In this document: piece by piece, positions 2,835 through 20,949 of the stretch
Layout: the number at the start of each line of letters is the position of its first letter
Numbering within the stretch: the stretch's first letter is position 1
NCBI GenBank assembly: GCA_022545545.1
Contig: JACZQV010000012.1
Coordinates: forward strand, 1-32,022
From: Pseudomonadota bacterium
GTDB taxonomy: Bacteria; Pseudomonadota; Alphaproteobacteria; SMXQ01
Direction of reading: 5' to 3'
Length of the DNA: 32,022 bases
Program-made: the position numbers and the translations under genes
Notes under the pieces: generated by a model
Database searches by the model: none
Seen by the model: only the letters and a program-made list of their open reading frames with translations
Told to the model about the DNA's origin: nothing

Positions 2835-3097
2835 ATACCAAAGGTCCTTGATAATGACCCCTAGAGATCGGGCAGGCGATCCGCCGGGTAGGAGGGGAGC
2901 CGCCGGCGATGCGGCGCATCGTCAAGGTTTTCCGACGCCCGCCGGCGGTTCGCATGCCCGACCGGAACGGCGGTTTCCCAAGGCTTTCGGACGGCGTCGC
3001 GCATGGCTTCCGATGTTTCACATCGCCGCGCCACGCGCTCCTAGCCGAAAACCTTGGGAAACCGTCTCTAGGGGTCATTATCAAGGACCTTTGGTAT
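2835..3097. repeat. Complex palindromic element: perfect 33-bp inverted repeat enclosing two adjacent imperfect hairpins (MITE-like or structured RNA)
   Basis: ATACCAAAGGTCCTTGATAATGACCCCTAGAGA at 2835-2867 is the exact reverse complement of 3065-3097. Inside: hairpin 1 arms 2868-2887/2942-2961 (18 of 20 match) and hairpin 2 arms 2971-2990/3045-3064 (19 of 20 match). Confidence 0.85.
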
Positions 3098-3825
3098 CAG
3101 CCCCGGCCGCCGGGCGGGCCCTGGCGCCGGCCAAAAGGCGTCGGAATGTTGGCCAGGATGGCGCCGAGGCGCCCGCCCACCTTGCCGATCGTCATGACGT
3201 CCGCGATCCGCCGGTCGAGGAAGGCGAAGGTCTTCTCGTAACCTTCGGAGTCGTCGTTCAGCCAGTAGAGCACGGTGGTGCCGAAGACGCCGGCCAGCGT
3301 CGCCCGCTTGGTATAGAAATTGAAGTCCGTCGCCGTATCGCCGGCGGCGTGCCACATGGCGTCCACCGTGCGATAGAGGCATTTGAGCGCCACCGGCGCG
3401 TTGGTGGGCAGCGCCAGGTACGACAACAGATGGCGCAGCGCCTCGCGGTGCTGGGCGTTCTGCTCGAGGCGGACGCGGACGGCCAGCGTTATGCGGTCAC
3501 GCACCTTAAGCTCGCCGACCTTGCGCTTTTCCAACTCCGCCATCATGCGCCTGTCGGCGAGGGTGCTGAAATGCACCGCCACTTCCGCCATGCCGCCGGG
3601 GAAGGCAAGGGGGGCGGCGGACGGATCAAACCCCGCATCCGCGAGGCCCGCCGTCAGCGCCTTGGTGGTCCAGCCGTCGAACGGGACATGGGGAAGCATG
3701 GCCTCGACGATCCTGTCGGCATCGAGCGCTGCCGGCTTCTCGCGGCCTTTTGCCTTGCCCTTGCCGGCGGTCTTGCCCTTGCCCGGCGCCTTCTTCGCCG
3801 TCTTGGCCTGGGGTTTCTTCGCCAT
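3097..3825 (-). CDS. COQ9 family protein (ubiquinone biosynthesis)
   Basis: Start set at MAKKPQAK (ATG 3825) rather than the longer ORF; LPHVPFDGWTTKAL, NQ/EHREALRHLLSYLALP and DFNFYTKRATLAGVFGTTVLYWLND are COQ9-like; adjacent to rpsU as in many alphaproteobacteria. Confidence 0.88.
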   Translation of the reverse strand: MAKKPQAKTAKKAPGKGKTAGKGKAKGREKPAALDADRIVEAMLPHVPFDGWTTKALTAGLADAGFDPSAAPLAFPGGMAEVAVHFSTLADRRMMAELEKRKVGELKVRDRITLAVRVRLEQNAQHREALRHLLSYLALPTNAPVALKCLYRTVDAMWHAAGDTATDFNFYTKRATLAGVFGTTVLYWLNDDSEGYEKTFAFLDRRIADVMTIGKVGGRLGAILANIPTPFGRRQGPPGGRG

Positions 3826-20022: not shown

Positions 20023-20949
20023 ATGAGCAATTCCGACGCGGGCGGGGTCCCGGAAAATGGCCCGGAAAATGGGCGGACGGCAAGGGTTGCCTTCATCGCC
20101 CTGCTTTCGGGCGCCATCGGCATCGCCTTCGCCCCCATCTTCGTGCGCCTGAGCGAGCTCGGCCCGAGCGCCACGGCTTTTCACCGTCTATTGCTCGCGG
20201 CGCCGTTCCTGTGGCTGTGGATGGGCCTCGATCGCCGCCGCGCCGCGGGCACGGGGCGCAAGCCCGCCACGGCCCGGGATTTCGGCTGGCTCGCCCTGGT
20301 CGGCCTGCTGTTCGCCGCCGATCTCGGCCTCTGGCACTGGTCGATCCGGCTTACCTCCGTCGCCAATGCGACGCTGCTGGCCAACGCCGCGCCGATCTTC
20401 GTGACCCTCGCCGGCTGGCTCGTCTTAGGCCAACGCTTCACGCCGGTGTTCCTCGCCGGCATGGCGGTGGCGCTCTTGGGCGCGGTGTTGCTGATGGGAT
20501 CGAGCGTCACCCTCGGCCTCGATCATTTGCTGGGCGACGGCCTGGGCCTGGCGACGGCGGTGTTCTACGCCGGCTACATGCTGGCGGTCAAAAAGGTGCG
20601 GGCCGATTTCTCGACCGCCACCGTCATGGCCTGGAGCGCCGCCGCCGGCGCCATCGCCCTTCTGCCCTTGGCGCTGGTTTCGGGCGAGAGCATCATCGCG
20701 ACGACGGCCACGGGCTGGGGGGTGCTGCTGGCGCTGGCGCTCCTCTCCCATGTCGGCGGCCAGAGCCTCATCGCCTACGCGCTGGCCCATCTGCCCGCCG
20801 CCTTCTCGTCCGTCAGCCTTCTGCTCCAGCCCGTCGCCGCGGCCCTCTTGGCGTGGCTGATCCTGAGCGAAGCCCTCGGCCTGCTGCAAGGATTGGGCGG
20901 CGCCGTCGTCCTCGCCGGCATCGCCATCGCCAGGCGCGGCAGCGGGTGA
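20023..20949 (+). CDS. EamA/DMT-family transporter
   Basis: Ten-TM hydrophobic profile with two EamA-like halves: FAPIFVRLSELGPSATAFHRLLLAAPFL, ANAAPIFVTLAGWLVLGQRF, LLQPVAAALLAWLILSEALG. Confidence 0.9.
   Translation: MSNSDAGGVPENGPENGRTARVAFIALLSGAIGIAFAPIFVRLSELGPSATAFHRLLLAAPFLWLWMGLDRRRAAGTGRKPATARDFGWLALVGLLFAADLGLWHWSIRLTSVANATLLANAAPIFVTLAGWLVLGQRFTPVFLAGMAVALLGAVLLMGSSVTLGLDHLLGDGLGLATAVFYAGYMLAVKKVRADFSTATVMAWSAAAGAIALLPLALVSGESIIATTATGWGVLLALALLSHVGGQSLIAYALAHLPAAFSSVSLLLQPVAAALLAWLILSEALGLLQGLGGAVVLAGIAIARRGSG

Follow-up and report, generated by a model that had tools for sequence, protein, structure and literature searches.

The 263-bp palindrome at positions 2835 to 3097 of the window, by which we mean the whole 32,022-nucleotide stretch of alphaproteobacterial DNA that was analysed, raises the question of whether it is a mobile unit or a folded RNA, and of what preserves its extensive pairing. 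The initial annotation had proposed both possibilities. Many copies, empty sites, target duplications and the existence of IS630-family elements with similar ends support the first of them. Sequence comparison gives good support to the conclusion that it belongs to a non-autonomous transposon family (MITE) present in many copies.

The element is bounded by outer arms at 2835-2867 (plus strand) and 3065-3097 (minus strand), which are complementary at 33 of 33 positions, in agreement with the perfect inverted repeats described earlier. The left arm, ATACCAAAGGTCCTTGATAATGACCCCTAGAGA, represents the terminal inverted repeat of what we call family A. Flush with this outer stem, again as described, lie two hairpins of 94 nt each, hairpin 1 at 2868-2961 (plus strand) and hairpin 2 at 2971-3064 (minus strand). 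Hairpin 2 is an inverted, diverged copy of hairpin 1, and a single model of a 95-nt unit (R1) matches both on opposite strands, with 87.4 bits for hairpin 1 and 96 bits, on the minus strand, for hairpin 2. Both hairpins contain two internal-loop motifs that are conserved in our alignments. The first, YAGGMG, is TAGGAG on the 5′ side of hairpin 1 (2889-2894, plus strand; alignments A1 and A2) and recurs in hairpin 2 at 3038-3043 (minus strand; CTCCTA on the plus strand). The second, RACGMC, is GACGCC on the 3′ side of hairpin 1 (2934-2939, plus strand) and recurs in hairpin 2 at 2993-2998 (minus strand; GGCGTC on the plus strand). A 9-nt linker between the hairpins (2962-2970, plus strand) is present as originally noted, but it is not an unpaired spacer: it folds as a mini-hairpin, CCG-GAA-CGG, that is 100% paired in the alignment of copies. 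Since the pairs of this mini-hairpin vary together among other copies (CCCGAAGGG, CCGAAACGG, CCCTTCGGG and CCCTGCGGG), the structure is a four-way junction rather than the three-way junction first proposed. The predicted folding energy of the 263-bp element is -178.8 kcal/mol (z = -16.8), which none of 200 shuffled sequences equals, and the opposite strand folds at -181.3 (z = -15.6). Within the ends, the conserved TGATAATGA (2849-2857, mirrored in the right arm) creates three stops in a single inward reading frame and is followed by a TAG in another, so that translation entering the element would in most frames end after some 30 bp. Elsewhere in the window, the model of the hairpin unit has a weak match at positions 20651-20727 (15.3 bits, E 0.25), which is probably due to chance.

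The element has what characterizes a MITE, namely 33-bp terminal inverted repeats and many dispersed copies, both in its own genome and in others. The assembly of its own genome (2.75 Mb in 196 contigs, broken at repeats) contains upwards of twelve copies, some complete and some partial, that share the same ends, the full copies being 97-98% identical, and a 25-bp end sequence occurs there without mismatch at 16 places. Because many contigs end inside copies, the true copy number is probably higher. In public genomes, a degenerate pattern of the ends matched at least 115 stretches, nearly all in metagenome-assembled genomes of Rhodospirillales/Kiloniellales-type Alphaproteobacteria; the isolates among them are Rhizobium giardinii H152 and a Pelagibius. 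Relatives with a length of exactly 263 bp are spread over genomes of Rhodospirillales type. Neither the window copy nor its ends matched anything in the plasmid, phage and viral collections searched, although the R. giardinii copy, used as query, does match relatives on rhizobial plasmids. The initial annotation recognized no named family, and our search of the open-access literature likewise found none.

The TA dinucleotides at the element's ends had suggested a TA target duplication. The flanks of family A instead fit a 3-bp duplication, reading TNA-(TACC..GGTA)-TNA, with the outer T in 69 of 75 left flanks and the outer A in 63 of 75 right flanks. The same N occurs on both sides in 47 of the 75 copies (shuffle mean 26.6, maximum 39), and the complete TNA is identical on both sides in 36 (shuffle mean 18.6, maximum 28). 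On these flank statistics, TA was rejected as the target of family A in favour of TNA. We also found empty sites by searching for joined flanks in a sister genome; for a 101-bp copy on C48, which has a matching TNA, the length of the empty site is that predicted by a 3-bp duplication. The two TNAs of the window copy are unequal (TTA at 2833-2835; TCA at 3097-3099, minus strand), as are those of the C22 copy. In both cases, the sister genome carries the two flanks on separate contigs, and the inequality may therefore reflect recombination or rearrangement at the element. Flanks split in this way are seen for several copies (L001, L002, L029, L088 and L105), so copies may mark rearrangement breakpoints. 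The neighbours of some copies are not the same in sister species, so the family may also shape genome order.

The right TNA of the window copy is at the same time the TGA stop codon of a COQ9-like gene (PF08511; 3097-4020, minus strand), which thus ends on the element. The downstream gene, encoding a FemAB-like protein (PF04339; 1632-2828, minus strand), starts at an ATG situated 6 bp outside the element. The end of the same COQ9 gene bears instead, in the sister genome, an end of another family, family C, introduced below. This arrangement is not an isolated case. Among the 244 element ends that have enough flank, the TNA is the in-frame stop of the adjoining coding frame in 44 (27 TAA and 17 TGA), whereas no other offset within 30 nt has more than 2 stops. 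An independent annotation, WP_018064007.1 of Martelella mediterranea, has its TAA at the element's TNA, with a TAA on the opposite side also. TAA and TGA are both TNA, a motif that is uncommon elsewhere in GC-rich DNA, and the combination of TNA targeting with selection against gene disruption may therefore suffice to explain this spike. Since a duplicated TNA would restore the stop codon, the 3′ end of a gene would be a safe landing site. The accumulation of a mobile element at gene 3′ ends, with the genes left unbroken, would then be simple to explain. Solitary element ends also occur at gene starts (L202:285 and nearby; L177:3816), and at L202 a flagellin-like gene appears to start with the ATG of TGATAATGACC.

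The position at gene ends could also point to a role in RNA, which has been proposed for REPs and some MITEs at 3′ untranslated regions. According to this explanation, the structure stabilizes or terminates the upstream transcript and is retained because the host then bears a lower cost. With about one fifth of the ends abutting a stop codon, many copies are probably transcribed, and the fold is very stable on either strand. The pattern of substitutions is less accommodating. As the initial annotation had stated, changes in the stems preserve pairing: 44 of 107 pairs are altered on both sides. In an alignment of 27 ungapped 263-bp copies, 95.7% of 2,888 cells are paired, two-sided cells number 205 versus 62 in shuffles, and the covariation score is 0.241 versus 0.04-0.06 for slid controls. 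Yet across the element as a whole, G.U cells are in balance with A.C cells (65 versus 59), so no RNA strand is favoured; when each hairpin is read in its own sense, G.U outnumbers A.C by 58 to 26. An Rfam scan of the window gave no match at the gathering score, and recent changes in resident copies have mostly broken pairs. The suggestion of a folded RNA, though possible, is thus unsupported, and we regard a role of this kind as rather unlikely.

Covariation in an inverted repeat can have another source. Every stem here is an inverted repeat, and two-sided changes are seen even between copies that are 97-98% identical, as would be expected if paired changes came from templated (quasi-palindrome) repair or template switching between the arms and not from selection on the fold. 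But in four close pairs of copies from the same genome, a comparison with small numbers and related, non-independent copies, 23 changes are one-sided and disrupting and only 4 are compensated. Templated repair would moreover leave unexplained the conserved unpaired loops, the fixed 94-9-94 lengths and the recurrence of one architecture behind unrelated ends, and we therefore consider it unlikely. Between lineages, in contrast to these close pairs, stem changes do compensate. This fits a selective filter that would act when new copies arise, as opposed to upkeep of copies already resident.

The recurring architecture is best seen by setting aside the ends. The core, consisting of two inverted hairpins of about 95 nt with YAGGMG/RACGMC loops around the mini-hairpin, is common to at least 10 inverted-repeat end classes across Alphaproteobacteria. 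In the element's own genome and the sister genome, it is found in other families whose ends are unrelated: family B (ends beginning GTACTTACTTTC), family C (GAGCRCTATCCG), family D (GGAGCCTRTCCGAG), family E (GAGCGGTTCTTGGTAG) and family F (GCCCGGATTTCTCACC). Families B to F are flanked by TA, often within CTAG. The dimensions also recur: the stems measure 26-34 bp, the hairpins are about 94-108 nt long, and the mini-hairpin, in elements where it could be resolved, has 9 nt. Among the 150 best candidates scored, the hairpin-unit model recovers at least 121 units in the element's own genome (G000) and at least 136 in a second genome (G001). The model also matches 16 of 142 alphaproteobacterial species, taken as one species per family, and the matched species show still other ends on elements of 260-274 bp. 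A tree of the cores rejects family-A cores as a single clade (p-AU 4.8e-7, which is only indicative because paired columns violate the model's assumption of independence). Family-A ends fall on separate core lineages, and the grouping by ends does not agree with the lineages of the cores.

A MITE is usually viewed as what deletion has left of a single transposon, whose ends define it. In the present case, it is the interior of the MITE that is conserved and the ends that can be exchanged, which makes the role of the interior testable. None of the transposase-bearing elements tested contained the core. This absence from transposase-bearing relatives, combined with the conservation of the core behind interchangeable ends, suggests a module that does not depend on a particular transposase. 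We tentatively propose, as an idea with somewhat less than an even chance of being right, that the branched core is a propagation module passed among at least 10 end classes in Alphaproteobacteria, and that it raises mobility, or tolerance by the host, with any IS630-type transposase that happens to be available.

The paired hairpins also invite comparison with REP, BIME and REPIN sequences tagged GTAG or CGTC, which likewise have paired inverted hairpins, GTAG- and GACG-like unpaired motifs and a frequent location at gene 3′ ends (PMC3733652). On this view, the hairpins would be REPs of the GTAG/CGTC type that form a REPIN, owe their mobility to a RAYT (Y1) transposase and became trapped within transposon ends. 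The loops GTAGGAG and GACG do resemble the tags GTAG and CGTC, long palindromes that enclose REP dimers have been reported (PMC3733652), and G000 has one Y1 transposase gene. Against this, the present element has long nested stems within transposon ends, the tag-like motifs are embedded in a long stem and vary in sequence (YAGGMG), and the flanks carry target duplications of transposon type. At the loci sampled, units were not seen outside transposon ends, and were either enclosed by terminal inverted repeats or situated where a contig ends. Four Y1 transposase loci carry no hairpin unit, and a RAYT was rejected as the mover on this lack of association between units and Y1 loci. The likeness of the loops to REP tags is a lead, but the tests made argue against REP membership, and a REPIN origin seems highly improbable.

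A better candidate for the mover comes from elements whose ends resemble those of family A. The original suggestion of an IS630/Tc1-mariner-like element is supported in this respect by IS630-family elements with similar ATACCA ends, which are present in related genomes. One of these, at locus L236, was reached through near-matches of the end pattern; it is 1,174 bp long, has ATACCA ends and TGA/TGA flanks, and contains a frameshifted gene for an IS630-family transposase (NF033545, E = 2.4e-43). An IS630-type gene between ATACCA ends is also present at L253 and at L255, where the flanks are TTA/TTA. All three elements are about 1.17 kb long, two of the three have identical TNA flanks, and all three lack the hairpin unit. 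Four further loci (L254, L256, L258 and L263) have an IS630-type gene with one visible ATACCA end. The similarity between the ends of the MITE and those of the IS630-family elements covers only the first 25 bp or so and is imperfect. In the 196 contigs of G000 we found a truncated IS630 gene and no intact IS630 transposase with these ends, and the first 8-kb loci yielded no transposon bearing the same ends. Based on these sequence similarities, family A is probably moved by an IS630-type transposase.

This assignment agrees in part with known systems. RUP of Streptococcus pneumoniae and Nezha of cyanobacteria are MITEs attributed to IS630-type elements. Like other MITEs of this group, they resemble the present element in being short, non-coding and intergenic, with terminal inverted repeats, and in being presumed to move in trans (PMC3733652). 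The present element differs from them in its four-way-junction core, common to many end classes, and in that family A fits TNA and not TA. As far as Tenzen and Ohtsubo 1991 is cited in PMC2170065, CTAG with TA is the reported target of IS630. IS630 and ISY100 (Tc1/mariner family) are thus comparable through the ATACCA-bounded transposases and through families B to F, which lie at CTAG with TA, but the present element has no transposase gene and family A fits a 3-bp TNA duplication. Such a duplication is shared with another group. The IS1031 group of IS5 duplicates TNA, but the transposases whose ends match the present element belong to the IS630 family and not to IS5.

The account that we favour, and hold to be rather likely overall from the comparisons above, is that of a MITE moved in trans by an IS630-family transposase, with insertion at TNA and a core kept for propagation. 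An IS630-family (Tc1/mariner-type) transposase would recognize the ATACCA ends and act in trans, and insertion at TNA would produce the 3-bp duplication. Landing at the 3′ end of a gene would then be tolerated, the duplicated TNA restoring the stop codon. The core would be kept since it helps propagation under any transposase. It would most likely do so as DNA, and might for instance bring the two ends close to each other or offer the YAGGMG/RACGMC loops as a binding site to a host factor.

The sizes of the copies qualify the part played by the core. Among 78 end-to-end copies, 31 are exactly 263 bp long, and the others are stem-only (98-104 bp), have one hairpin (about 140-185 bp) or contain nested hairpins. 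Stem-only elements, which altogether span 33-104 bp and include one of 101 bp with a matching TNA and an empty site, indicate that the core is not strictly required, or that it can be lost later. At five loci (L039, L040, L041, L082 and L084), further palindromes (e.g. one beginning CCCGGGGGTCGCGGGGGCGCCCCCCGCATTTATAG) are nested inside a hairpin, as a second layer of insertion. Finally, some palindromes of 33-37 bp consist of just two element ends (L195:3849-3881, L134:5084-5116 and L227:273-309), some of them with matching TNA.
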